Shown here: piece by piece, positions 37,548 to 52,559 of the stretch
How positions within the stretch are numbered: the stretch's first letter is position 1
Layout of the letters: every line of letters begins with the position of its first letter
From: Paeniglutamicibacter sulfureus
Lineage (GTDB): Bacteria > Actinomycetota > Actinomycetes > Actinomycetales > Micrococcaceae
Assembly: GCF_030512175.1 (NCBI RefSeq)
Contig: NZ_JAULBL010000002.1
Coordinates: forward strand, 99,689-163,688
DNA: 64,000 bases
Direction: 5' to 3'
Notes under the pieces: generated by a model
Databases searched by the model: none
Seen by the model: the letters and a program-made list of their open reading frames with translations, nothing else
Told to the model about the DNA's origin: nothing
Translations under genes and position numbers: made by a program

Positions 37548-40500
37548 TCAGTCTTCCGCGCCGTCCTCGTCGTCGTCGAGTCCGAGTGTGTCCGGATCAC
37601 GGAGCGGGCGCAGGGTGCCGCCCGCCGGCTGGGTGGCGGTGAAGCTGTAGCGGCCGAGCAGGTTGAGGTTCTTGTGTTTGAGCGGGGAGAGCCGGGCCAC
37701 GTCCTCGTCGCGGATCTCGTGGCCCTCGGTGCGGAGCTGGGCGACTGCGGCGTCGAGGTAGCGGGTCGTCCAGAGCACGACGGCATTCAGGACCAGGCCG
37801 AGCGAGCCGAGTTGGTCCTCCATCCCGTCGCGGTACGCCTGGTGAATGGTGCCCTTCTTGCCGTGGCAGATCTCCCGGGCCAACTTGTGGCGGGACTCCT
37901 GCACGGTGAGCTGCTTGTGCATTTGCCGCCGGTAGGTGTCATCCACGGGGTCCACAACGGCAAGCAGGTGCAGGGTCTTGGCGATCCGCCCGTATTCGGC
38001 GAACGCCTGGCCAAGCGGTGTGGGGCGGCCCTCGTGCCCGAACATCCGCAGCAGGTCATAGGCGCGCACCTGGTTGGTGACCAAGGAGCCGGCCACCCGC
38101 AGCATGTCCGGCCAAGCCGTGAGCACCTTGTTCACGTTCACTTTGTTGTTGCGGGCCAGTGCCTCCAACGCTCCGTATCCGTCTGCCGGCTCGGCGCCGG
38201 GCATTTGGGCCTTCCAGAACCGTTGGTCTTCGAGGTCTCTGAAGCGCGGGGAGAAGCGGTAGCCGAGCATCTTGAAAATCCCGAAGACCGTGTCGGAGTA
38301 GGAGGCATTGTCGGTGGCGACCATCTCGGGCTTCACCCCGCCGTCCAGGTTCAACAGGGCGTCCAGGATGAACAGGGAGTCACGTGGGGTGCCGGGCACC
38401 ACCATCTGCCCGATGCCGGCCACCTGGTCGTTGATCGCGTTCAGCCAGGTGACGCCCTTCTTCTTTGCGAAGTACTTCGGCGAGGGCGCGGCGTTGATAG
38501 TGCGCACGGGAACGACGAAGCGCAGGCCGTCGACGGAGGCGAGCAGGCCCTTGCCCCAGAACTGCACGATGGGCACCCTGACTTGGGCTTCGATCAGAGC
38601 GGCGTTCGCCGCGGCGATGGTGGTGGTGCGCAGGTAGTACTGGTCAACGTGGACCAGCCGGGAGCGGGTGAGCGCCTCATGGCCCGGGTTGATCACCGGG
38701 GTCATGCCGATGTTGCAGGCTTCCGAGACAAGCAGCGCGACGATCGAGGTGCTCAGGTCCTTCATCCGGGTCTTGCCATCGCCCAGGTGCACGAAGGCGT
38801 CCAGGAATCCGGTCCAGGCGTTCACCTCGAAGAGCAGGTCCGGCAGGTCGATCTTCGGGAGCATCTTCTCCACCCGTCCGCGCAGCCACGCCAGCGACTT
38901 CGGCTCCCCGAGCGCGTGAAGCTTCTCCACATTCAGTTTCGCCCTCCCGCTGGGCTGCACCTCGATGCTGATCTTCGCGTCGTCACCGGCTTCTTCGAGG
39001 CGCTCGGCCATCTGCCTCCAAGTGGCATCCAGTACCTCGAGAAGTTCCCGCAGGTGCTGCTCGGCATCCTCCTCCAGGCTCAGGCCGGCCAGGATGTCCT
39101 CGCGCACCGCCTCCCACCCCGTGCCCATGAGCAGGCGGGCGCGTGGGTCAGACCAGCGGTGCGAGGGTGAGGCGAAGATGTCCCGACGCTTCAGGGCGCG
39201 GAAGAGCTGTTCCAGGACACACACCACGTACGCGTCGCGATCCACAGTCCCCTGGGGCAGCTCGGCGTTCGCATACACTGCCTGGTGCCAGTGCGGCGGC
39301 ACGAGTTTGTCGTCGATCTCCCGGGGCAGCAGCGGCTTCTCGCCGACCTTCCGACGCGAGAGTGCCGGCAGCTTCTTCACCCCGGCCAAGATCCGTACCC
39401 CGCCGGTCGCGGCTTCCAGCGCCGAGGTCTCACCCAACAGCGACAGGAACGGCTTGACGGTGTTGTAGCGCAGTGCCAGCGCACCACGCAGTGCGGTTTG
39501 CGCCGAATCGCCGTCCTGGGGCACCAACGTCACCACGGTGGCGGCCGCGCCCGACATCACCGACCGGGGCGCGATCTCCTCCAACGCCCGCCACAGTGCA
39601 GCCACATCCACATCGCCACCGGCCTCCTCGATGGACTCCAGCTTCTCGATGAACACCTTCGCCGCCCTGGCCACAATCCGGGACGCCTTCTCCAACTGTG
39701 GCAGGGTGGACAGGCGCTGCTTGTCGGTGGAGCGCTTCGCGGTGCTGATCAGCCTGGTCGCCATCAGGATCTCGAACAGGTCAAGGGCATCATCGATCGC
39801 CTTGGCCTCCAGATGGCGCATCACCGCGGTGAGTATCGCCGTGCGCTTGGGTTCCGCGGTCCGCTCCAGCTTCGGGGCCTTGGTGCCCAGCCCGTACCGG
39901 GCCAGCACGGCGAGCCGGTTCGGCGGTATCTGTTCCAGTTTCAGCCGGCCCAGCCCGAAGGCGGCGATGTCCTCAACCCGCTGCAACGCACCCTTCATCG
40001 CGGTGCCGGTGCTCCGCGTTGGCGGTCGACGCATCCGCTCCAGTTCCGAGTACCGGGTGCCCTCCGGTGTTTTCAGCGTGGCAACCAAGTCCCCGGGCAG
40101 CGCCGGATCCGCCCGCAGGGCGGCCTTGGCAACCGTGGCGTGCAGCCGCTTCTCGGCGATGGTGCGGACCTCGGAAACCTGCCGGGCCAGCACGTTCACC
40201 CCGGGTAGCAGCACCCGGTGCCGACGCAGCCAACCCGCCGCGTGGTTGAACAACGCGACAGGTCCCTCGGCGTGCGTCCATGCCCGCCCGTGCAGGAACG
40301 CCCTGAACCTTCGGCCGTGGTCGGGGTCCTCGTACTGGTGGTAGCCGTACGCATCGCGGATCTCCCACGCGTGTTCGTACGCCGTCTTTGGCCGCTCGGT
40401 GTATTCCTTGAGGCAGGAGGGATCCTCAATCTCCAGCTGTGCCGCCAGATGCTCAACGACCGGCCACGGCACAGCCGAGGGGTCCTCCAGGAACAGCCCG

Positions 40501-40685
40501 ATGTACCGGACCGTGCACATCTGCAGGGCGAAGCCCAGGCGGTTGTGGTCGCCTCGCCGCTTCGCGATCAGGCTCCGGTCCTCGTCGTCGAGGAAGAAGA
40601 AGCGCTCCAACTCGGGCCGCGTCGGTTCCTCGGCGAACCTTCCATAGGCCTCGGCCTGTTCATCAGTCAGAAATTCCACGGGCAT
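37548..40685 (-). CDS. tnpA: Tn3-family transposase TnpA
   Basis: 1045 residues from ATG 40685, the usual size for the family. The N-terminus (MPVEFLTDEQAEAYGRF) is the DUF4158 DNA-binding region; the C-terminal DDE catalytic part includes EMVATDNASYSDTVFGIFKMLGY (Asp), LEDQRFWK and a late SNPLVHVD-like block (SRLVHVDQYYLRT). No cognate resolvase lies next to it. A possible right end, GGGGACTACTGG read inward on the minus strand (40812-40823), has no matching left end, so the transposon boundaries are unresolved. Confidence 0.93.
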   Translation of the reverse strand: MPVEFLTDEQAEAYGRFAEEPTRPELERFFFLDDEDRSLIAKRRGDHNRLGFALQMCTVRYIGLFLEDPSAVPWPVVEHLAAQLEIEDPSCLKEYTERPKTAYEHAWEIRDAYGYHQYEDPDHGRRFRAFLHGRAWTHAEGPVALFNHAAGWLRRHRVLLPGVNVLARQVSEVRTIAEKRLHATVAKAALRADPALPGDLVATLKTPEGTRYSELERMRRPPTRSTGTAMKGALQRVEDIAAFGLGRLKLEQIPPNRLAVLARYGLGTKAPKLERTAEPKRTAILTAVMRHLEAKAIDDALDLFEILMATRLISTAKRSTDKQRLSTLPQLEKASRIVARAAKVFIEKLESIEEAGGDVDVAALWRALEEIAPRSVMSGAAATVVTLVPQDGDSAQTALRGALALRYNTVKPFLSLLGETSALEAATGGVRILAGVKKLPALSRRKVGEKPLLPREIDDKLVPPHWHQAVYANAELPQGTVDRDAYVVCVLEQLFRALKRRDIFASPSHRWSDPRARLLMGTGWEAVREDILAGLSLEEDAEQHLRELLEVLDATWRQMAERLEEAGDDAKISIEVQPSGRAKLNVEKLHALGEPKSLAWLRGRVEKMLPKIDLPDLLFEVNAWTGFLDAFVHLGDGKTRMKDLSTSIVALLVSEACNIGMTPVINPGHEALTRSRLVHVDQYYLRTTTIAAANAALIEAQVRVPIVQFWGKGLLASVDGLRFVVPVRTINAAPSPKYFAKKKGVTWLNAINDQVAGIGQMVVPGTPRDSLFILDALLNLDGGVKPEMVATDNASYSDTVFGIFKMLGYRFSPRFRDLEDQRFWKAQMPGAEPADGYGALEALARNNKVNVNKVLTAWPDMLRVAGSLVTNQVRAYDLLRMFGHEGRPTPLGQAFAEYGRIAKTLHLLAVVDPVDDTYRRQMHKQLTVQESRHKLAREICHGKKGTIHQAYRDGMEDQLGSLGLVLNAVVLWTTRYLDAAVAQLRTEGHEIRDEDVARLSPLKHKNLNLLGRYSFTATQPAGGTLRPLRDPDTLGLDDDEDGAED

Positions 40686-40971
40686 GAGACTGACAATAGC
40701 CGCCCCACTAGTGATCGAAAGTCTTCCGACGAAAATCTGCACGAAACTCCGCGCAACCTGGATCGCCTGAGCTAAACAATCATGATCAAGTGCCTAGCGC
40801 CAACCGCTGTACCAGTAGTCCCCAAGGCCGGGATAGGCGCCGAGGACAACCCCTTCGGTCAGCTTCTGAAAATCACGCGGATTATTCCGAGCCGTACAGG
40901 TGACTGCCCCATGCCTTAGAGGCGTTCAGGCGGCCATCGGAATAACCCGGGAATCGGAACAATCCACGTAA

Positions 40972-41723: not shown

Positions 41724-41844
41724 AAAGGTACCTTTCACACCTTTACCCCCCGTTGGTGTTGGCCATTTTAAAGCCCTAGAAGCTTGTAAACGCCCTGAAC
41801 GAGCCCCTCCGCCGATATTTCAGGCGCGGAAAAAAGGTACCTTT
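41724..41844. repeat. two copies of the AAAGGTACCTTT palindrome (left cluster)
   Basis: Perfect 12-bp copies at 41724-41735 and 41833-41844, upstream of the ribbon-helix-helix gene. The same motif is densely repeated at 44498-45547. The surrounding 41326-42025 holds no gene I can support. Confidence 0.85.
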
Positions 41845-42025
41845 CACCCACTAGGGCCCAATACCCCTGAAACACTCTCAAACCCCGGACTCGCGCGGGC
41901 AGATGGCCTTCACTGATCCGGAACTACCTAGTGGTAATTTGATGAGTAGTTGGAAACAGTTACAACCCCAACCCCTTGGCCACGCCAACACCGGCGGCCT
42001 CAGCAGGAGAGCAAAGGACAAAGAC

Positions 42026-42253
42026 ATGGCTGCATCAGGAAACCGCGGAGGCGGTCGTCGGAGTAAAGGCGAGCGCTCCTTCGTGGGTACTCGCGTCCCG
42101 GTCGAGCAACACGAAAAGCTGAAAGAGGCCGCCGCGCGGGAAAACCTCTCCATCAGCGAGTTCGTGGAGAACCTCATCGCCTCTGCTGTCGAAAGCCCGG
42201 TGCACTCCGGTGCTGGACGGAAAGGGGCAGGTCGACTAACCGTCTCAGCTTAA
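42026..42253 (+). CDS. ribbon-helix-helix DNA-binding protein
   Basis: 75 residues with AAAGGA upstream of ATG 42026. A basic N-terminus (GNRGGGRRSKGERS) leads into a MetJ/Arc-type unit: beta strand FVGTRVPVEQHEKL, then two helices with SISEFVENLIASAVE. Such proteins act as plasmid copy-number repressors, antitoxins or partition proteins. It sits between the left repeat cluster and rep, so control of replication, or binding of the AAAGGTACCTTT sites, is plausible. No toxin gene is adjacent. Confidence 0.82.
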   Translation: MAASGNRGGGRRSKGERSFVGTRVPVEQHEKLKEAAARENLSISEFVENLIASAVESPVHSGAGRKGAGRLTVSA

Positions 42254-42258
42254 AAAAT

Positions 42259-42283
42259 AAGGGCCCGCACGAAGCGGGCCCTT
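42259..42283. terminator. hairpin between the RHH gene and rep
   Basis: Perfect 10-bp stem (arms AAGGGCCCGC and GCGGGCCCTT, loop ACGAA) five bases after the RHH stop. A-rich sequence precedes the stem, so the minus strand has a U-run after it; the element probably works in both directions. Confidence 0.75.
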
Positions 42284-42449
42284 GGAAGTATGCGTTCCCC
42301 GTCTGAGTGCTTGCCGGCCTTTAGACGAAGAAACGATTCAGTTGTAGTTGAAAATGTTGTAGGCCTGCCAGCTTCCAACAATCCCATCAGCGGGCTTTTG
42401 CCTGCCATCCTCAGTAAGGATTAGTGCCATCGTACAACAGCGCCATGGG

Positions 42450-44273
42450 GTGCTGCCACCGGTGCTGTCAAAATCTTCTGGGCGAGTCGCTTCGGCTTAC
42501 CCAGAAGCCGATGCGGCTTGGTCTTCGCTCACTCCCCTGATTGCCGGGCAGCCGCGCGTCCGTATTTCGCGTGACGGCGGTAAGAACTACCCCCAACGCT
42601 TTGAGCGCGATCTCACAGAATCGCGACCCGTTCAACCGGCAGCGGTGCTGATCTACGGGCGCGACGGTTTGTGCCGGACTTTGGCGCTCGACTTTGACTC
42701 GTCGGTATCCGGTGGCGAGGCCAGGGTTGAGGCCGACGTCCGGGCGGTCACCATCTTGTTGTATGACCATGGCGCACGTTGGATCGAGGATCGATCCCCC
42801 AACGGCGGACGGCACATCTATGTTCCGTTGTCCGAGCCGATGACATTTCTCCAGGCACGCGCCATGGTTGAAGCCTTGGCGACCCGCTACCGATCCCTGG
42901 ACCCGACTCCACACCAAAACCTTCGGCATGGCTGCATCCGTACGCCCGGCGCGACGCACAAATCCGGCGGAACACAGCAGCTAGCCATGAGCTTGTCGAT
43001 GGCCATGGACGTAGCAACCAACCGCAATGCGGCTGCAGTAATGTCCCGGCTGGCCAGATCACTGCACGCCGAACTGGAGGCAGTGGCCAAAGAACGTGTG
43101 ACCACCGAACAGGTGCCGGCTGTCGCCCCCAGTGGCGCACCAGAAATCATGTCCCGTCGAATCATGGTCATTGCCACCCAGGGCACCTATGAAACCTCGC
43201 GGTACGAGAGCCCGTCAGAAGCTCGCCAGGCTGTCCTGGTGGCTGCTGCGGCTGCGGGGATGCAGCTCACTGATATCCAGCGCCGCATTCAGCAAGGCGT
43301 CTGGCCTGGGTTGGCACAGTTCTACACCCGATACTCCCCCAGCCAACGTGGGGGCAGCTTGCGCAGGGATTGGGCGAGAGCAGCCAAATTCGTGGGATCA
43401 AACCCCGGAAACAAGCATGTCCTTAAAACCAACACAAGCGAGCCATCTTCACAGGGGGGGTGGGTACAAGGCTTTGAACCCGGATCAGATAACGAGCATC
43501 GTTTCATTCGTTCCTGGCGTGGTGCCCTCGCCCTGTCCGAAACGCGCTACCAAACCAGCAGGATTGGTCTGGGACGGCGCTTGGTGCTCCGATCTTTAGG
43601 GGCTGCTGCACATATGAAGGGAAGTCGTGTCGTTGAATTCGGGGTTCGGTCGTTGGCTATTTCATCCGGTATCGAACCCACCGCCGTGGCAGCTCATCTG
43701 CGCGCTCTACGGTCCGAAGCGGACCCACTGATTCGTCACGTTGGCGAAGCGCGGGGTATCCATGGAGACCAGTATGAACTGGTGATCCCCCAACATCTTC
43801 AGGATGTGGCCGACAAGCGCTCGTGGCCAGCCGGTAAGCTTCACGCCTTACGCCCAGCTTTCAGGGAGCTGGGCTCCGCGGCCGCCTTCGTTTACGAGGC
43901 CTTGGAGGACCTACCCACAACTCCCCCGGTGAGCGACATCGTCCGACGGACCGGACTGAGTCGAAGCGCCGTCCATGGAGCCCTTGAAGTGCTCGCCGCC
44001 TGGTCCCTGGCCGAGCGGACGCCCGCGGGCTGGTCGATAACCCTTGGAACGAACCTGAACGCCGTGGCGGAGGTCCTTGGCGTCTTGGAGACTGTTCTTG
44101 AGCAGGTGATCCGCTACAAACAGCAGCGTGAGCTGTGGCGCGAATGGCTGGCACGCCGAGGCTCGGGTCTGGTCATGCTTCCCTCCCCCGAGGAAGACTA
44201 CCCCTGGGAACAATTCTGTGGGCCACCGGATGATTGGACGCTGTCTGATTTGGCGCTGCGCGCTGCCGGATAG
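42450..44273 (+). CDS. plasmid replication protein with primase-like domain (Rep)
   Basis: 607 residues from GTG 42450. The N-terminal part resembles archaeo-eukaryotic-type primase/Prim-Pol domains: LALDFDSS (metal-binding Asp pair), DRSPNGGRHIYVPL and RHGCIRTPGATHKSGG with the conserved His. The C-terminus has a winged-helix unit (VSDIVRRTGLSRSAVHGALEVL) for origin binding. No helicase Walker motif was seen. Flanked by AAAGGTACCTTT arrays and followed by parA, it is the probable replication initiator. The start is uncertain, as no clear ribosome site was found. Confidence 0.78.
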   Translation: MLPPVLSKSSGRVASAYPEADAAWSSLTPLIAGQPRVRISRDGGKNYPQRFERDLTESRPVQPAAVLIYGRDGLCRTLALDFDSSVSGGEARVEADVRAVTILLYDHGARWIEDRSPNGGRHIYVPLSEPMTFLQARAMVEALATRYRSLDPTPHQNLRHGCIRTPGATHKSGGTQQLAMSLSMAMDVATNRNAAAVMSRLARSLHAELEAVAKERVTTEQVPAVAPSGAPEIMSRRIMVIATQGTYETSRYESPSEARQAVLVAAAAAGMQLTDIQRRIQQGVWPGLAQFYTRYSPSQRGGSLRRDWARAAKFVGSNPGNKHVLKTNTSEPSSQGGWVQGFEPGSDNEHRFIRSWRGALALSETRYQTSRIGLGRRLVLRSLGAAAHMKGSRVVEFGVRSLAISSGIEPTAVAAHLRALRSEADPLIRHVGEARGIHGDQYELVIPQHLQDVADKRSWPAGKLHALRPAFRELGSAAAFVYEALEDLPTTPPVSDIVRRTGLSRSAVHGALEVLAAWSLAERTPAGWSITLGTNLNAVAEVLGVLETVLEQVIRYKQQRELWREWLARRGSGLVMLPSPEEDYPWEQFCGPPDDWTLSDLALRAAG

Positions 44274-44497
44274 GAGCTAGGTGGTGTGACGAGTTTGCCG
44301 CCACTCTCCGCGCTGCGCGATCCATCTGGTGGGCGGTTTGCGCAAATGGTGGAAAAAGCACCTTTGTTTCCCGTGACATTGTTCGATTGATCTAGAGTCG
44401 CGGTGGGACCTCGGAGGCGGGGTTCGTCCTGTCGGGAAAATGCGCCAGTTCAACTTCACTCCCCCGGCCGACAGGCACGCCCTGGAAATTCGGTGTG

Positions 44498-45547
44498 AAA
44501 GGTACCTTTCACACCGCTGACACCCCTTGGTGCGGAAATTCAGACACAAGCTCGACGTCAAATGCGTTCATGCAACGAATCAAACGATGGCACTGCGCTG
44601 CGCGATGCCCGGTAGCCCAGTGCTGGGCACCGCGCGCGAAAGGAAATCTTGTTTCCCTTGACACCGCTGGTGCCTATCCCGCGGGTGCCCCCCGCCGATT
44701 TATCACCAGTTCCCTAAAGGACCTTCAGCGCAAAGAGTACCTTTAATCCATGCGATGTACGCTGGGCCTGCGGAGACAGAAGGTACCTTTCTTCGCATTC
44801 ACAATTCCGGCCTTAACGTTGACAACGAGGATCTACACGGCGCTGTCGTGCGGCGACAGAGCAGGGCTAAAGGTGCGAATGGGCCCACTAGGCCAAGCCA
44901 GGGGGCTGCACGCTTGAGTGGTTCGTGGCCGGTCACGAACTCAGGCACCATAACCCATACCTGCCGGCGCTCATTGGTGGAAATGATGTCAATGGAACCG
45001 TGGCCGGGAATCATACGAATCGCGCTAAAGGTACCTTTAGCACTGGGGGCGCTAGAGGGGATGAAGTTGGTGGCACCTCGTCCGGCAATCGAACCCTTGG
45101 AATGAAAGGTACCTTTGTGGGCAATGGGGACCAAGGATTGCAAGGCTATAGTTCCTTCTGGGCTAACCCCACTAAGGTACCTTTCCCACTGAAGGCACTT
45201 GGGGCTTGAGCAATCTTCTGATCGACTTCGCGAGCAGTCGCTATAATCCTTCGGCACTACCGTAGAAACATGCGGATTATCTCCCGATGCGGCGGAGAGC
45301 TCCAGGGGATCGGACCCCTATTCGACTTCAACCCAGGAGTTGCTATGCCACGATTGACCACAAAGGTACCTTTACCTCTTGTGGAACCTTGGGTCTCTAA
45401 CACTCCTATGGGAATTCAATGGTGGGAAAGGACGCTTTCGTAGTAAAGGTACCCTTAAATTCTCGAACTCTCTGCGTACTAACGCGGGGAAAGGTGCCTT
45501 TTACTTCAAGCGAGCTCAATGGGCGGAATGGCACTAAAGGTACCTTT
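44498..45547. repeat. centromere/iteron-like array of AAAGGTACCTTT palindromes
   Basis: Perfect copies start at 44498, 45027, 45105, 45362 and 45536; one-mismatch copies at 44778, 45173, 45445 and 45490; a looser copy near 44733. At 44491-44516 the palindrome extends to 26 bp, and at 45024-45041 to 18 bp. The array fills the gap between rep and parA, where a plasmid parS/parC centromere or replication iterons are expected. 44274-45713 contains no gene; frames there encode repeated Lys-Gly-Thr-Phe from the motif itself. Confidence 0.88.
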
Positions 45548-45713
45548 TCTGCAATCTGTAACTTTTTCTGAAACGTTGGGCGTGGCGCGTGGCGGCGCAT
45601 GCTGTTTCACGTCTAGCGTGGCATTAACAAATGTGGGTTGCCGGCCCGTTTCGCAGAGGTATGCCCTCTGCTGGTTCGGCGACCTCTCACCAGAACAGGT
45701 CGGGGAGTAGTAG

Positions 45714-46523
45714 ATGGCATCGAGAATCATCGCGGTATGCAACCAGAAGGGCGGAGTCGGTAAGACCACGCTTGTCACCGGGCTTGCCGAAGTGTATTCC
45801 CGCGATCACGGTAAACGCGTCCTGATCATCGACGCGGATCCCCAGAAGAACACCACCTCGGCGATGGGCATTCACGATCCTGAATTCACGCTCAACGATG
45901 TTCTCTATGGGGACGAAGCAGCCAACCATAAGATCACGCCAGGAGTAGCAGGAGATGCAATCATCCCGGCGGGGGCAGCCTGGCAAGGTGACTTCCCGGA
46001 ATTGGGTGTGATTGCCTCGGAGCGCAACCTGGCCTCCCGTGAACGTGACTCGATGATGGCCCGTGAGCGTCGCCTGCACAACGCACTCAAAGGCGTAACC
46101 GATAACTACGATGTAGTGCTAATCGATTGTCCTCCATCCCTGGGTTTGCTTACTGTCAATGCGCTGACCGCCGCGACCCACGCCCTCTTTGTCAGCGAGC
46201 CACGCGTTTCATCGGTCGAAGGGCTGACCGAGATCATCACCACCGTCGCCGAGGTGCAGGAAAATTTGAACGAGAACCTGGACGTAGCCGGGATCGTGGT
46301 CAACAAGCTCCGCAGGGGTCGCACCGACCAAGAGCAGTGGGTTCGCAAGATGCGCAGCGATTATGGCGACCTGGTGCTGGATCCAGGACTGCCGGACCGT
46401 GAAATATTCGCCAAGGCCCAGGCCGCCGCTTTGCCACTAGGTAGTTATGGGCGCTCTGCAGATTTGATCCTGGACCCCCTGCGCCGTTTGGCCACTGCGG
46501 TCTGGAAAGGTACGACGGTATGA
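45714..46523 (+). CDS. parA: ParA-family partition ATPase
   Basis: 269 residues with the deviant Walker A KGGVGKT near 11-17 (QKGGVGKTTLVTG), switch I region IIDADPQKNTTSAMG and Walker B VVLIDCPPSLGLLT. No N-terminal helix-turn-helix, so it is a short (type Ib-like) ParA. GGGGAG precedes ATG 45714. It overlaps the following gene by four bases (ATGA). Together with the upstream repeats it forms a plasmid segregation cassette. Confidence 0.95.
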   Translation: MASRIIAVCNQKGGVGKTTLVTGLAEVYSRDHGKRVLIIDADPQKNTTSAMGIHDPEFTLNDVLYGDEAANHKITPGVAGDAIIPAGAAWQGDFPELGVIASERNLASRERDSMMARERRLHNALKGVTDNYDVVLIDCPPSLGLLTVNALTAATHALFVSEPRVSSVEGLTEIITTVAEVQENLNENLDVAGIVVNKLRRGRTDQEQWVRKMRSDYGDLVLDPGLPDREIFAKAQAAALPLGSYGRSADLILDPLRRLATAVWKGTTV

Positions 46524-47002
46524 CGACTAGTCCGGGCCGCGGGGGCAGCGGGGGGGATGCGCTCAGCCGGCTGAAACGCCCGAAGCTGGCCAAGGCCAAC
46601 GATCGCAGTGTAGTAGAGGAAATGACCGCCTCGGAGACTGCTTCGCCGACCATAGCGCCGGTGGAGTCGCCGGTGCATGTGGTGCCAGAACCGGCTCCTG
46701 TTGAGTTCCCTGCGCACACGTCCGGTGTCAAACCCATGCCGCAAACAGCGCCCGTGGAAGTAGACGAGAAGCGTGCTACGCCCCGGCGCAAAATGTCTTT
46801 CGCGCCCACCCAGGACGAGCACGATCGCATCCGAAGTGCGTTCATGTCCACCCGGCACCATACCCGCTATGCGACCCTGAACGACTTCCTGCGCGCCGTT
46901 GTACTCGAAGAATGCGCACGGCTGGAAGATGAACACAATGGTGGAGCAGAATTCGACTGGAAAGAGGCTGAAATTCCTAAGGGCCGCCCGCTGAGGTTCT
47001 AG
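46520..47002 (+). CDS. small ParB-type centromere-binding protein
   Basis: 160 residues. A flexible Pro/Val/Glu-rich N-terminal half (about 30-95) precedes a compact C-terminal domain (PRRKMSFAPTQDEHDRIRSAF, then a helix FLRAVVLEECARLE) that looks like a ribbon-helix-helix unit. The location in parA's operon and the small size match centromere-binding partners of short ParA proteins, which recognise repeats upstream of parA. Confidence 0.75.
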   Translation: MTTSPGRGGSGGDALSRLKRPKLAKANDRSVVEEMTASETASPTIAPVESPVHVVPEPAPVEFPAHTSGVKPMPQTAPVEVDEKRATPRRKMSFAPTQDEHDRIRSAFMSTRHHTRYATLNDFLRAVVLEECARLEDEHNGGAEFDWKEAEIPKGRPLRF

Positions 47003-48614: not shown

Positions 48615-49736
48615 GTGGCTGATCGAGGAGTACCGCCGGGTTCTGCCTCGCTATCGCTTTTGCCGGGTGTCTCCTTCCTGAACGAAGCAGAATCAGTTTT
48701 CACTGCCATGCTGGAGGGCTGGCAAATGCGCCAACGTGGCGGACGGAACCTCAAAGAATCCTCCGTGCGAGGCACTGTGAGCCAGATTTCGCAGTTTCAG
48801 GCGTTTACCAATGACTGGCCCTGGAACTGGAGCGCCGCGGATTTTGACGAGTGGATGATGCATTTGGTGGCAGTCAAGCAACTGGCTCCCTCGACGATTC
48901 GCACCTACCAGTACGCGGTGAGGGAGTTTTGCAGCTACTTGTGTTCCGAGCACTACGGCTGGGTTGAAGAATGCTCCTCCCGCTTCGGTAACTACCCGTC
49001 CCAGGTCTGCCACGAGTGGAACAGCGTGGCACACCTGCAGGAATACGAGGGCCGGCCCGGGCGCCGGCCCATGAGCCGAATGGAGATCCAACAACTCCTG
49101 GACCGGGCAGATGAAAGGGTCGAGGACTGCATCGCCGCACGACGCAAGGGAGCGGTGTCGGCATACCGTGATTCCACGATGCTGAAGGTGATCTACGGGT
49201 GGGGCCTTCGCATCAACGAAGCCGTGCAGCTGGACGTCAACGACTTCTACGCCAACCCGCACCACCCGGAATTCGGGCGCTTCGGCGTCTTGCAGGTCCG
49301 CCACGGCAAATCCTCGGCGGGCTCGGCCCCCAAGCGTCGCTCGGTCATGTCCCTGCACCCGTGGGCGGTTGACGCCGTGCGCGACTATGTGGAGAACGTG
49401 TGGCCGCAAGTGCGCACCAAGGATTCCAATGCCCTGTGGGTCACCGAACGGGGAACCCGCACCAGCACGCATGAACTGCGGAAAACCTTTGGACAACTAC
49501 GTGACGGGCTGGGCCTGGAGAAGGCCCTTTCGCCGCACTGCCTGCGGCACAGTTACGTGACCCACCTGATCGAATCGGGGATCGATCCGGTCTTCGTACA
49601 GCAACAAGTAGGACACGCCTACCAATCCACCACGGCGATCTACACGGCAGTCAGCGGGGACTTCGCCAACAAAATGATGCACCAGGCACTGGCCAAGCTC
49701 TTGCCGGAATCACCCAAGACGAAAGGCGCAACATGA
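48615..49736 (+). CDS. tyrosine recombinase/integrase
   Basis: 373 residues with all catalytic residues: Arg199 (GLRINEAV), Lys232 (RHGKSS), His308 and Arg311 (HCLRHSYVTHL), His334 (VGHAYQSTT) and the nucleophile Tyr343 (AIYT). An N-terminal SAM-like core-binding domain spans about 24-145. GTG start. Its stop overlaps the start of the HTH gene by four bases, so the pair is coupled; the site at 48567-48613 is its likely substrate or operator. Confidence 0.93.
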   Translation: MADRGVPPGSASLSLLPGVSFLNEAESVFTAMLEGWQMRQRGGRNLKESSVRGTVSQISQFQAFTNDWPWNWSAADFDEWMMHLVAVKQLAPSTIRTYQYAVREFCSYLCSEHYGWVEECSSRFGNYPSQVCHEWNSVAHLQEYEGRPGRRPMSRMEIQQLLDRADERVEDCIAARRKGAVSAYRDSTMLKVIYGWGLRINEAVQLDVNDFYANPHHPEFGRFGVLQVRHGKSSAGSAPKRRSVMSLHPWAVDAVRDYVENVWPQVRTKDSNALWVTERGTRTSTHELRKTFGQLRDGLGLEKALSPHCLRHSYVTHLIESGIDPVFVQQQVGHAYQSTTAIYTAVSGDFANKMMHQALAKLLPESPKTKGAT

Positions 49737-50083
49737 AAACGATCGGGTACGAATGGCGGTTGAGGGAACTCATGGCTGCCGCGGGAATGTTCACCACCAC
49801 CAAGCTCAATCGTGAGCTAAAAGAACGCGGAATCGAGTTGTCCTCAAGCCAGGCCTACCGGCTTGCCACGGAGAAACCCGAACGGCTGAACCTGCATGTC
49901 TTGATGGCACTCATGGACATTTTCGATTGCAGCGCCGATGACCTGGTTCAACGCGTCGAACTGCGTCATTCATCTGCCAAGACAGGTACAGAGGATCAGG
50001 ACACCACGGGAACGGCGGATTTCCTGCGGAAAGAAGGGTTCCGTCCCAAGCGTGCCAACATTGTTCCCGACCATGAAGCGTGA
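49733..50083 (+). CDS. XRE-like helix-turn-helix protein of the recombinase trio
   Basis: 116 residues. The N-terminal two thirds is a Cro/C1-type fold (YEWRLRELMAAAGMFTTTKL, SSSQAYRLATEKPERLNLHVL) ending in MDIFDCSADDLV, typical of XRE regulators; the C-terminal tail is polar. The stop overlaps the next gene by 11 bp. It may act as excisionase/directionality factor or repressor of the recombinase. Confidence 0.85.
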   Translation: MKTIGYEWRLRELMAAAGMFTTTKLNRELKERGIELSSSQAYRLATEKPERLNLHVLMALMDIFDCSADDLVQRVELRHSSAKTGTEDQDTTGTADFLRKEGFRPKRANIVPDHEA

Positions 50084-52559
50084 GGACGCCCTTGACGACA
50101 TTGCCGAACTTATTCATCGGATAGAACCCGGCCTTCCCCGGCCCCGGATTCGCCAGGCCGTGGCGCGGACCATGGCAGCACGGCCCGCAATCCCCGAACT
50201 GCTCTCGGTCCTGCAGGATGACATCGGGCTTCTGACCTCCGGGGACGATACGATGCCCTCAAGCCTGGCCGGCATCATCGACCAGCTGATTCACGAAGGA
50301 GCCACCACGCTCAAACGCCCGCGATGCCACCGCTGCCACGAGCAACGCCGCCTGCCAAACCGCAGAGGAGGGCACGGCATCTGCGCTTCGTGCTATTCAC
50401 TAGACCGCCGCGTGCACATCGAGTGCTCGCGCTGCGGGCAACAGCGCAAGCGGCGCGCCTTGGTGGGCGGGCAGGAATGGTGCGGCACCTGCTGGGAAGG
50501 CCAGCTGGGGCAGGTGGAGGCCGTGTTCAGGACCGCCGTTCGCGGCAGCGGATGCGGCATCACCGCACGCCAGTTCGAGGCCGTGGCCGCGACGGTGCAC
50601 AGCACCTGGAAAGCAGGAGCCATCCTCAGGCTTTCCTTGGAATTGAACACCCGGTCCGAGCAGTGGTTCGCCCAGCCTGCGGCGGGATCAGTGTTGTTCC
50701 TGAGATTCCATGCCGCGTTGGAGAAAGCCGGCGTCAAGGTGACTCCCGTGGCATGTGGGCGGTGTGGTCGGGAAGCGACCCTGGCCAACATCCTGGGAGG
50801 ATTGCGTTGTTGTGCCAGGTGCTATTCCGCGAGCAAACGGGAAACCTGCTCCCAATGCGGGCGGGAGCAAGTACTGGTGCTGCACGCCGCTGACGGGACC
50901 GGAATCTGCCAAACGTGCATGAAGAAACTGCCCGACCGCACGGCCACATGCATCGACTGTGGGCAACGGCGGTACGTGGCCTGGAACGGACCCGACGGGC
51001 CGGTCTGTTCCAAATGTCGACCCAAGCATCGCATCGACTACTGCCCCGGATGCCAGCGGCAAAAACCGTGCTTGTTCGCCGGCACTTCCCGGGCACGGTG
51101 CCACGAGTGCTCACGCCAGAAGGAAACCTGCGCGCTCTGTGGCACACAAGTCCGAGCCGCCACCCGCAATGACCAGGGAATAGCCATCTGTGGTCGGTGC
51201 TCGCGCAAACCCGAGCCATGCTCCGACTGCGGACGGCACCGGATTGTGGTGGGCCGGGCGCAGGGGAAACCGCTTTGCGACTACTGCTACCCCAAGGACC
51301 CGGTGTCGTTTCGCGACTGCGGTCGATGCGGACGCCACGAAAACCTCCAGGTGGCCGACTTGTGTCAGCACTGCGCCGCGGACGATGAACTCGAACGACT
51401 GGTGCCCCTTGAAGCCAGGGCAAACAGCCCGGTGGCCCAAGCCATCCATGATCTCTGCCAGGATGCCAAGCCGCAGTCCATCCTTGCCGCGGCGAGGAAC
51501 TCATCCATGGGGCTACTTCGCAGCATCATGGATTCGCAGATCATACCTACCCATGAATTCCTCGACCATGCAGGGGCGGACCAGGCGACACGGGCCGTGC
51601 GCTCGCTCCTGGTTGATGCAGGATTGCTGCCGTACCGCGACAACAACCTGGCGAGGTTCGAGGAATGGATCACCCGCACGGGACAGCGAATCACGGATCC
51701 ACAACAGAGAGCGGCCTTTGTCCAGTTTGCCCGGTGGCGCCACGTGCGGGAACTACGGAAGCGGAAATCCCCAGTCCATTCCAGCCTGACGACGAGCCGC
51801 CGCCGGGAACTGCGCCTGGTCATGGAACTTCTCGAATGGCTGCAGCAGCAGAACCGGGCACTGGCCTCCCTCACACAGTCCGACATGGATCGCTGGAGAG
51901 CCAGCGGGTCGGCGGAAAGACACCGGGTCAAGCCCTTTCTCGCGTGGGCGCACGCCAACGGGATGGTCCGAAGAATCGAGATCCTCAGGAAACCCGGCAA
52001 CGCCCTTGACGTGGCCGGCACGCCAGCAAACGAACGGGCGCACCTGTTGCACGGAATCCTGGACCCCGGGTGCACCTCGCCGGTTGCCGTGCGCTTTGCC
52101 GCGGCCCTGGTGTTGCTCTTCGGCGCCGGACCACAGCAAATCGTGGAGCTGCGCGTGTCCGACATCAGCACGAACGACGAACGGGTCTACCTGAAATTGG
52201 GGAACGATCCCCTGCTCCTTCCCGATGCCTTGGTGGACCTGGCTATTGGAACCCACGAGAACCGGATGGCACCACGACTGTTTGCGCCCACCCGTGACAC
52301 CGACTGGCTTTTTCCCGGGATCAGGACCGGATATCCCCTCTCGGCATCCACGTTGATCGGAAGAATGAAGACTCTGGGAGTCTCTGCTTCCCGTGGCAGG
52401 ACAGGCGCCATGGCTGAGTTGGCCCAAGAACTGCCGCCCGCCATATTGGCACGGCTGACGGGTAACTCGACGACCACCGCGATCCGTTGGTCCAATGCCG
52501 TAGCGGCGTCAAACGCCCGGTACGCGGCACTAGCCATGCCTGCCACTCCGCTGGGCTGA
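50073..52559 (+). CDS. nine-zinc-ribbon protein with degenerate tyrosine-recombinase domain
   Basis: 828 residues from ATG 50073, overlapping the HTH gene. Residues about 85-434 hold nine tandem CxxC...CxxC zinc ribbons (first CHRCHEQ...CASC, last CGRCGRH...CQHC). The C-terminal half (about 440-828) has a SAM-like domain and a recombinase-like domain, but box I reads GAGPQQIVELRVSDI without the catalytic Arg, box II keeps only an Arg (SRGRTGAM), and the Tyr position is Trp (TAIRWSNA). It probably binds DNA as a non-catalytic partner of the upstream recombinase. I do not know a named family. Confidence 0.75.
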   Translation: MKREDALDDIAELIHRIEPGLPRPRIRQAVARTMAARPAIPELLSVLQDDIGLLTSGDDTMPSSLAGIIDQLIHEGATTLKRPRCHRCHEQRRLPNRRGGHGICASCYSLDRRVHIECSRCGQQRKRRALVGGQEWCGTCWEGQLGQVEAVFRTAVRGSGCGITARQFEAVAATVHSTWKAGAILRLSLELNTRSEQWFAQPAAGSVLFLRFHAALEKAGVKVTPVACGRCGREATLANILGGLRCCARCYSASKRETCSQCGREQVLVLHAADGTGICQTCMKKLPDRTATCIDCGQRRYVAWNGPDGPVCSKCRPKHRIDYCPGCQRQKPCLFAGTSRARCHECSRQKETCALCGTQVRAATRNDQGIAICGRCSRKPEPCSDCGRHRIVVGRAQGKPLCDYCYPKDPVSFRDCGRCGRHENLQVADLCQHCAADDELERLVPLEARANSPVAQAIHDLCQDAKPQSILAAARNSSMGLLRSIMDSQIIPTHEFLDHAGADQATRAVRSLLVDAGLLPYRDNNLARFEEWITRTGQRITDPQQRAAFVQFARWRHVRELRKRKSPVHSSLTTSRRRELRLVMELLEWLQQQNRALASLTQSDMDRWRASGSAERHRVKPFLAWAHANGMVRRIEILRKPGNALDVAGTPANERAHLLHGILDPGCTSPVAVRFAAALVLLFGAGPQQIVELRVSDISTNDERVYLKLGNDPLLLPDALVDLAIGTHENRMAPRLFAPTRDTDWLFPGIRTGYPLSASTLIGRMKTLGVSASRGRTGAMAELAQELPPAILARLTGNSTTTAIRWSNAVAASNARYAALAMPATPLG

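Follow-up and report, generated by a model that had tools for sequence, protein, structure and literature searches.

An array of 12-bp palindromes upstream of parA as the probable centromere of an RHH-type ParABS system in Paeniglutamicibacter sulfureus

Plasmid centromeres bound by a ribbon-helix-helix (RHH) ParB are known as a kind, and they offer the closest described counterparts of the locus considered here: an array of 12-bp palindromes at 41724-45547, upstream of parA and parB, in a stretch of DNA from Paeniglutamicibacter sulfureus (the window; 64,000 nucleotides, within which positions below are counted). Judging from the sequence comparisons presented here, the array very probably serves a low-copy plasmid as its centromere (parS/parC) and is bound there by the RHH-type ParB encoded at 46520. 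The array itself appears undescribed in the titles and abstract openings of the literature on Arthrobacter plasmid centromeres, RHH plasmid partition and the pCXC100/Leifsonia ParB, a scope that does not include the original pCXC100 papers. Papers that contain the exact 12-mer are unrelated, again by their titles and abstract openings.

One counterpart is the type Ib (RHH) ParABS of plasmid pCXC100 from Leifsonia xyli subsp. cynodontis (family PF18064), with which the window locus shares a ParB C-terminal domain homologous to Protein Data Bank (PDB) entry 3no7 and a centromere placed upstream of parAB. We take 3no7, which is recorded as a putative plasmid related protein, to be the pCXC100 ParB itself; among the collected plasmids, the best counterpart of 3no7 was a partial match. 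As outlined in a review, the pCXC100 centromere consists of direct repeats alone (PMC5016525), whereas here there are scattered 12-bp palindromes, a degenerate 9-bp register and extra sites upstream of a small RHH gene. The delta/omega/parS system of pSM19035 also has an RHH ParB. As described for this system, the omega sites overlap the copS and par promoters, omega binds contiguous non-palindromic 7-bp repeats, at least four of them in a row for ParA activation, and the ParB is reported to be unable to spread (PMC9499535). In the window, by contrast, the strong units are mostly isolated and runs of four contiguous strong units are not found. RHH centromere binders are described as acting as repressors as well (PMC5016525, PMC9499535). 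The ParF/ParG/parH system of TP228, compared by description only, resembles our locus in its RHH centromere binder and in the repeats upstream of the operon; it differs in that its site is continuous and made up of direct as well as inverted repeats separated by AT-rich spacers, as the same review outlines (PMC5016525). Classical chromosomal parABS (HTH ParB, CTPase, 16-bp parS; HTH, helix-turn-helix) is similar in its ParA ATPase family. Unlike the ParB of that system and of type Ia, the window ParB matches only CB_ParB_C (PF18064) in Pfam at E<=0.1, and neither a ParB-CTPase nor an HTH domain. The array motif is unrelated to the classical parS consensus.

In the window, the pattern AAAGGTACCTTT gives 13 matches at up to two mismatches (7 exact, 4 with one mismatch and 2 with two), all confined to 41724-45547; in 100 dinucleotide shuffles of the window the mean is 0.60 matches and the maximum 3. 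An earlier description of this DNA by a model that saw only the letters and a list of open reading frames (the sequence-only reading) had listed seven perfect and four one-mismatch copies within 3.8 kb, none elsewhere in the window, and one copy extending to a 26-bp palindrome, and each of these observations is borne out. The exact copies lie at 41724-41735 and 41833-41844, both upstream of the small RHH gene, and at 44498-44509, 45027-45038, 45105-45116, 45362-45373 and 45536-45547, the last of which is nearest parA. The copy at 44498-44509 widens to a perfect 26-bp palindrome (44491-44516) and that at 45027 to an 18-bp palindrome with its flanks. Copies with one mismatch are found at 44779-44790, 45173-45184, 45445-45456 and 45490-45501, weak copies with two mismatches at 44354-44365 and 44733-44744, and a matrix trained on the array picks up one further weak site near 45426. 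The sites are spaced 18-248 bp from each other. The earlier placing of the array around rep and upstream of parA holds for nine copies in the 1.4-kb interval between these genes, and has to be adjusted for the two (41724 and 41833) that precede the small RHH gene. We propose that the centromere proper spans 44354-45547, as strong palindromes set in a degenerate 9-bp register, on the basis of enrichment, spacing and flank tests, the motif-free test in the window being weak.

When the 12-mer is counted over the whole 4.55-Mb assembly at up to one mismatch, as the sequence-only reading had suggested for the replicon, it occurs at 13 places: the 11 of the array and just two one-mismatch sites beyond it (C9:244213 and C9:1955947). 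The same pattern read backward occurs at 8 places. Among 395 genomes of the family, the exact 12-mer has no copy in 382, one in 10 and more in 3, namely our own genome (7), G074 (11) and G237 (6), and the backward control is found 0-2 times per genome. Chance and base composition as the source of the array are ruled out by the shuffles together with this control. Since 101 of the 395 genomes have a match to the ParB profile, only a small share of the family is marked by the exact 12-mer. The ParBs of G074 and G237 are 70% and 52% identical to the window ParB and their ParAs 91% and 84% identical to the window ParA; their beta-strands read RRKMSFAPT and RRKMSLAPT, and among 22 extracted ParBs the strand RRKMS[F/L]APT is found only in these two and in the window. 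In G060 and G007 the ParB-profile scores are as high or nearly so, yet there is no exact 12-mer; relatives of both were in the profile.

The genes next to the array are those expected of a type I ParABS with an RHH ParB (type Ib), which is our best reading of the system: a Walker-type ParA is followed by a small parB, the ParB has a C-terminal RHH domain, and the repeats stand upstream of parAB. ParA (269 aa, 45714-46523, plus strand; AAA_31, E 6e-44) is a Walker-type ATPase that is 64-72% identical to the ParA of five Micrococcaceae plasmids. The start of parB overlaps the parA stop by 4 bp, and its product (160 aa, 46520-47002, plus strand) joins a divergent N-terminus, in which an Arg at position 7 is invariant in nine sequences, to the RHH domain. 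In type Ib systems the ParB N-terminus is flexible and offers ParA an arginine finger. PF18064 is matched by nine of nine aligned ParBs at E<=0.01, and PDB 3no7 is matched at E 2.5e-5 with the window ParB alone and at E 4e-18 with the ParB profile.

Par loci related to that of the window often carry the array in changed letters. In all 19 loci whose ParA is at least 60% identical, the 1.5 kb that precede parA are enriched in palindromes, L254 being unclear (p-values uncorrected for the number of seeds). These loci include the close pairs L001/L249, L254/L255, L258/L259 and L260/L262 and so are not 19 independent events. L248, from the same plasmid as L003, was left out of all array counts; L257, a near copy of L256, was left out of the spacing, site-density, Mantel, class-site and register tests, and L254 of the spacing and register tests. 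From the 40 fetched loci we also set aside L266, L267, L270, L273, L274, L275 and L278 in the array tests, as no ParA or only part of one was recovered for them. Absence from plasmids of the same parA type had been named in the sequence-only reading as speaking against a centromere: the exact 12-mer is indeed missing from most of them, and a letter-changed homologue is present in the 19 examined, with the same reservation about L254.

Motif matrices, trained locus by locus on the 2.2 kb upstream of parA, fall into several classes. The window shares AAAGGTACCTTT with L250 and L251, and most loci have AA(T/A)GG..CC(A/T)TT; variants such as AATGGnnCCATT are frequent among the relatives. L252 has ATTGGTACCAAT, L253 has AATA..TATT, and L003 and L256, whose ParBs share a YQD strand, have AATGC..GCATT; the class of L254 is unclear. 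The palindrome AATAGTACTATT is seen in some more distant Par loci. With these locus-specific matrices there are 362 sites in 28.5 kb upstream of parA (12.7/kb, partly the training stretch), 42 sites in the 14.7 kb in front of the 21 RHH genes (2.86/kb, outside the training stretch) and 18 sites in 168.7 kb elsewhere in the loci (0.11/kb). The last site precedes the aligned start of ParA by 158-208 bp in all but one of the 19 loci, the exception being L256 with 234 bp. Beyond these loci, a ParA scan of genome contigs returned at least 80 loci, with ParA 32-41% identical among the matches listed, and 25 of them (L050-L074) served as a negative set. Viral contigs yielded one 50% identical ParA (L121), without a clear array, and phage records gave no match.

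Around the palindromes there is a 9-bp register; in several relatives it is strong, in the window modest. Over 18 loci, neighbouring sites are separated by a multiple of 9 in 151 of 333 cases (37 expected if even), and the excess is also present among spacings of at least 30 bp (56 of 217, 24 expected if even). In the flanks at +-18 bp, where an overlap with the strong site is impossible, sequence below the site threshold scores 1.00 standard deviations (SD) above the mean in the AAAGG class and 1.02 SD above it in a further 15 loci; with shifted patterns as controls the score is 0 (p 0.0005 each), and control offsets fall below 0. In the window alone the value is 1.09 SD at +-18 bp (p 0.0005), with p 0.009 for +-27 to 45 bp. 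In the AAAGG and AATGG classes the flanks show approximately (A/T)3-GG-nn-CC, repeated with a 9-bp step, and a motif-free spectral test has its average peak at 9 bp (mean z 3.45, 21 loci). The loci differ in how closely the strong sites are packed: in the AAAGG class of the window the median spacing is 99 bp and 1 of 29 spacings is 18 bp or less, and in the other loci 42 of 304 spacings are 9-bp steps. The register is consistent with ParB dimers that stack outward from the strong sites.

Which protein binds the array can be approached from the company that the array keeps. The sequence-only reading had offered, beside a centromere, iterons shared by Rep, that is, palindromes bound by Rep at a replication origin, as might be suspected of an array so close to rep. 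Sites of the array's classes are found above all 20 shuffles in 18 of 19 loci that have both this Rep and this Par. On plasmids with a Rep 50-56% identical and another type of ParA, 0 of 14 hold more than two class sites, and Rep is therefore disfavoured as the binder; L009 and L011 hold two each, above the shuffle maximum of 1. It should be kept in mind that the motif seeds were drawn from loci with this Par, which favours that group. Among 15 Par loci without this Rep nearby, L006, L007, L264, L272, L276, L277, L281 and L290 hold at least three sites, above shuffles, and in L006, L007, L264, L272 and L276 a related array is present with no such Rep in the fetched stretch. Clusters of class sites are not always next to parA (L271, L277). 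The outlying sites in L258, L259 and L005 precede an RHH gene downstream of rep rather than rep itself, and L009 bears TTCATGCATGAA repeats instead, mostly upstream of its own ParA. Taken together, and although a Mantel test (below) ranks Rep above ParB, we regard iterons as the least probable of the readings considered, and as a very improbable one. As a separate observation, the nine exact TTCATGCATGAA palindromes of L009 (6814-9353), eight of which lie upstream of its ParA, make up another candidate centromere.

The small RHH protein encoded at 42026 was, with the ParB at 46520, one of two candidate binders named from the sequence alone, and the array might be its operator cluster. In 16 of the 19 loci an RHH gene is indeed preceded by sites, and where there are two RHH genes (L005, L259) the window-type one alone has them. 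The arrays of L002 and L004, however, lack sites at the RHH gene, as does L254, and L007, L264 and L272 have arrays with no RHH match in the stretch that was fetched. What speaks against the small RHH protein is its beta-strand, which does not track motif class: FVGTR, found in the window, L001, L249-L253, L256 and L259, spans five classes (AAAGG, AATGG, ATTGG, AATGC and AATA), the remaining loci having FVGSR, FVATR, LVGTR, FVGGK or (F/Y)IGFR. The ParB strand, in turn, shifts together with motif class in several cases. Over 19 loci, Mantel tests relate motif distance to ParB (r 0.30, p 0.014) and, less clearly, to ParA (r 0.26, p 0.07) and to the small RHH protein (r 0.14, p 0.13). That the RHH protein is the main binder thus seems very unlikely, and of the two early candidates it is the ParB that we favour; the 42026 gene looks more like a target of regulation exerted at these sites. 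An arrangement in which the sites are shared, with ParB at the centromere and the small RHH protein competing with it at its own operator, would be compatible with our preferred explanation. Both proteins match RHH profiles or structures, and a single locus-specific matrix covers the sites close to parA and those close to the RHH gene; given a small RHH strand that is indifferent to motif class, we consider such sharing unlikely, if less so than an RHH operator cluster.

The centromere, which the sequence-only reading had already placed upstream of parA, is thus supported by the position of the array, by its restriction to genomes with this ParB, by its co-occurrence with Par over Rep, by the class-matched sites in front of the RHH gene and by the 9-bp register around the palindromes; homologous arrays accompany this ParA/ParB. 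Several results nevertheless weigh against this explanation. The Mantel correlation of motif distance is best with Rep (r 0.50, p 0.002), and in partial tests Rep keeps its correlation given ParB (0.43, p 0.011) when ParB given Rep does not (0.10, p 0.23). We suspect that Rep ranks higher as the better clock of plasmid ancestry. L003, which has both Rep and Par, did not exceed the shuffles; among the 15 Par loci that have no such Rep close by, L271 holds two sites and L008, L265, L268, L269, L283 and L286 are not above shuffles; of seven Par loci with a distant Rep, L282 alone has more than two sites; and one of the 25 unrelated ParA loci (L072, 3 sites) is above shuffles. The motif classes also grade into each other, as in G007 (L249), with 7 copies of the window pattern at up to two mismatches and none exact. 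The window ParB falls below the PF18064 cut-off (E 1.2e-4, 22.6 bits, cut-off 27). In the spectral test, finally, the 9-bp period reaches p<=0.02 individually in 8 of 21 loci, is just p 0.05 in the window and is not significant in L250, L251, L252, L258, L006 and L007, among others.

If the array is a centromere of this kind, we infer the following steps from binding to movement. Each ParB dimer would lay its beta-ribbon onto a single WWWGGnnCC unit. Binding would be nucleated at the 11-14 better palindromes, and further dimers would occupy the degenerate adjoining units at 9-bp steps. Short nucleoprotein filaments could then form and bridge over about 1.2 kb, and ParA, contacting the N-termini of ParB, would move the complex across the nucleoid. 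Through the parA-proximal site and the pair of sites that precedes the RHH gene, ParB may repress both parAB and the RHH gene, and repression at both places would link partition to copy control, an arrangement akin to the overlap of omega sites with the copS and par promoters in pSM19035. A more specific version of this model, which we advance tentatively and at somewhat less than even chance, is a cryptic (WWWGGnnCC)n centromere in which palindromes nucleate an RHH-ParB filament, in which Micrococcaceae plasmids have co-diversified the unit and the ParB strand as a lock-and-key series (AAAGG, AATGG, ATTGG, AATGC, AATAG), and in which a copy-control-like RHH gene is regulated, via class-matched sites, by that ParB.

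The remainder of the locus runs, in order, from the first two palindromes through a conserved 37-bp block, the small RHH gene, a Rep-like gene and about 1.4 kb with the remaining copies to parA and parB. The block, GGTGGTAATTTC..GGAAACAGTTACAG (41930-41966, plus strand), follows the two palindromes, precedes the RHH gene and is kept across 10 aligned loci of differing palindrome classes; it is possibly an origin, leader or operator element. The small RHH protein (75 aa, 42026-42253, plus strand) matches RHH_1 just under the cut-off (E 8e-4) and, in NCBIfam, two families without reaching the cut-off (YlcI/YnfO at E 1e-4, ORF56 plasmid copy control at E 0.004), and with two palindromes upstream it may be a copy-control-like regulator. 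The Rep-like protein (607 aa, 42450-44273, plus strand) is an open reading frame with only C-terminal HTH matches in Pfam, and by eye its N-terminal half (LALDFDSS, GGRHIYVPL) appears primase-polymerase-like. It matches 197 plasmid records, and the 40 of these that were listed are annotated as MarR/HTH regulator or hypothetical protein; we call it Rep because of its place on matching plasmids. Before parA there are conserved elements, GGCGTGGC and TAGnnT (45579-45619, plus strand; alignment of 15 loci), and a sigma-70 scan found no promoter-like site above chance in front of the gene. The sequence TGTTTCACGT at 45603-45612, presumably the left half of a classical chromosomal parS, precedes parA both in the window and in L250, is absent from that place in L251, and may be a chance occurrence. 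On either side of the locus are a long Tn3-family transposase gene (1064 aa; 37548-40742, minus strand), just upstream, and a recombinase cluster (48615-52559) of a tyrosine integrase, a small open reading frame and a large one without a Pfam match; plasmid pYJN5-1 (L296) has an integrase/HTH/XerD trio near rep.

The window sits in a 3.02-Mb contig, where it starts right after a gap of 100 N, and belongs to a gap-free segment of 208,360 bp between two such gaps (G000:C9:99589-99688 and 308049-308148). This segment is most likely a plasmid contig misplaced in the chromosomal scaffold by scaffolding, because it is bounded by gaps, its flanks map about 0.88 Mb apart in a complete genome of the same species (left at 3.93 Mb, right at about 3.05 Mb), that genome has no motif copy and no ParB match, and the only PF03432 relaxase of our genome is located in the segment. 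The gaps, the distant flanks and the relaxase likewise speak against the array as a chromosomal feature. The ends of the segment do not overlap each other. No tRNA was found in a scan over the initial 460 kb of the contig, a result that does not separate the segment from its neighbours.

From the perspective of plasmid biology, the locus bears on how RHH-ParBs assemble a partition complex. Because the relatives span a range from mostly isolated palindromes to many 9-bp steps, the requirement for contiguous units could be tested within one protein family. If the more specific model is correct, its lock-and-key series of motif classes could set plasmid compatibility. The parallel changes in motif and ParB strand suggest a specificity code that may bear on incompatibility and on the design of compatible vectors for Micrococcaceae.

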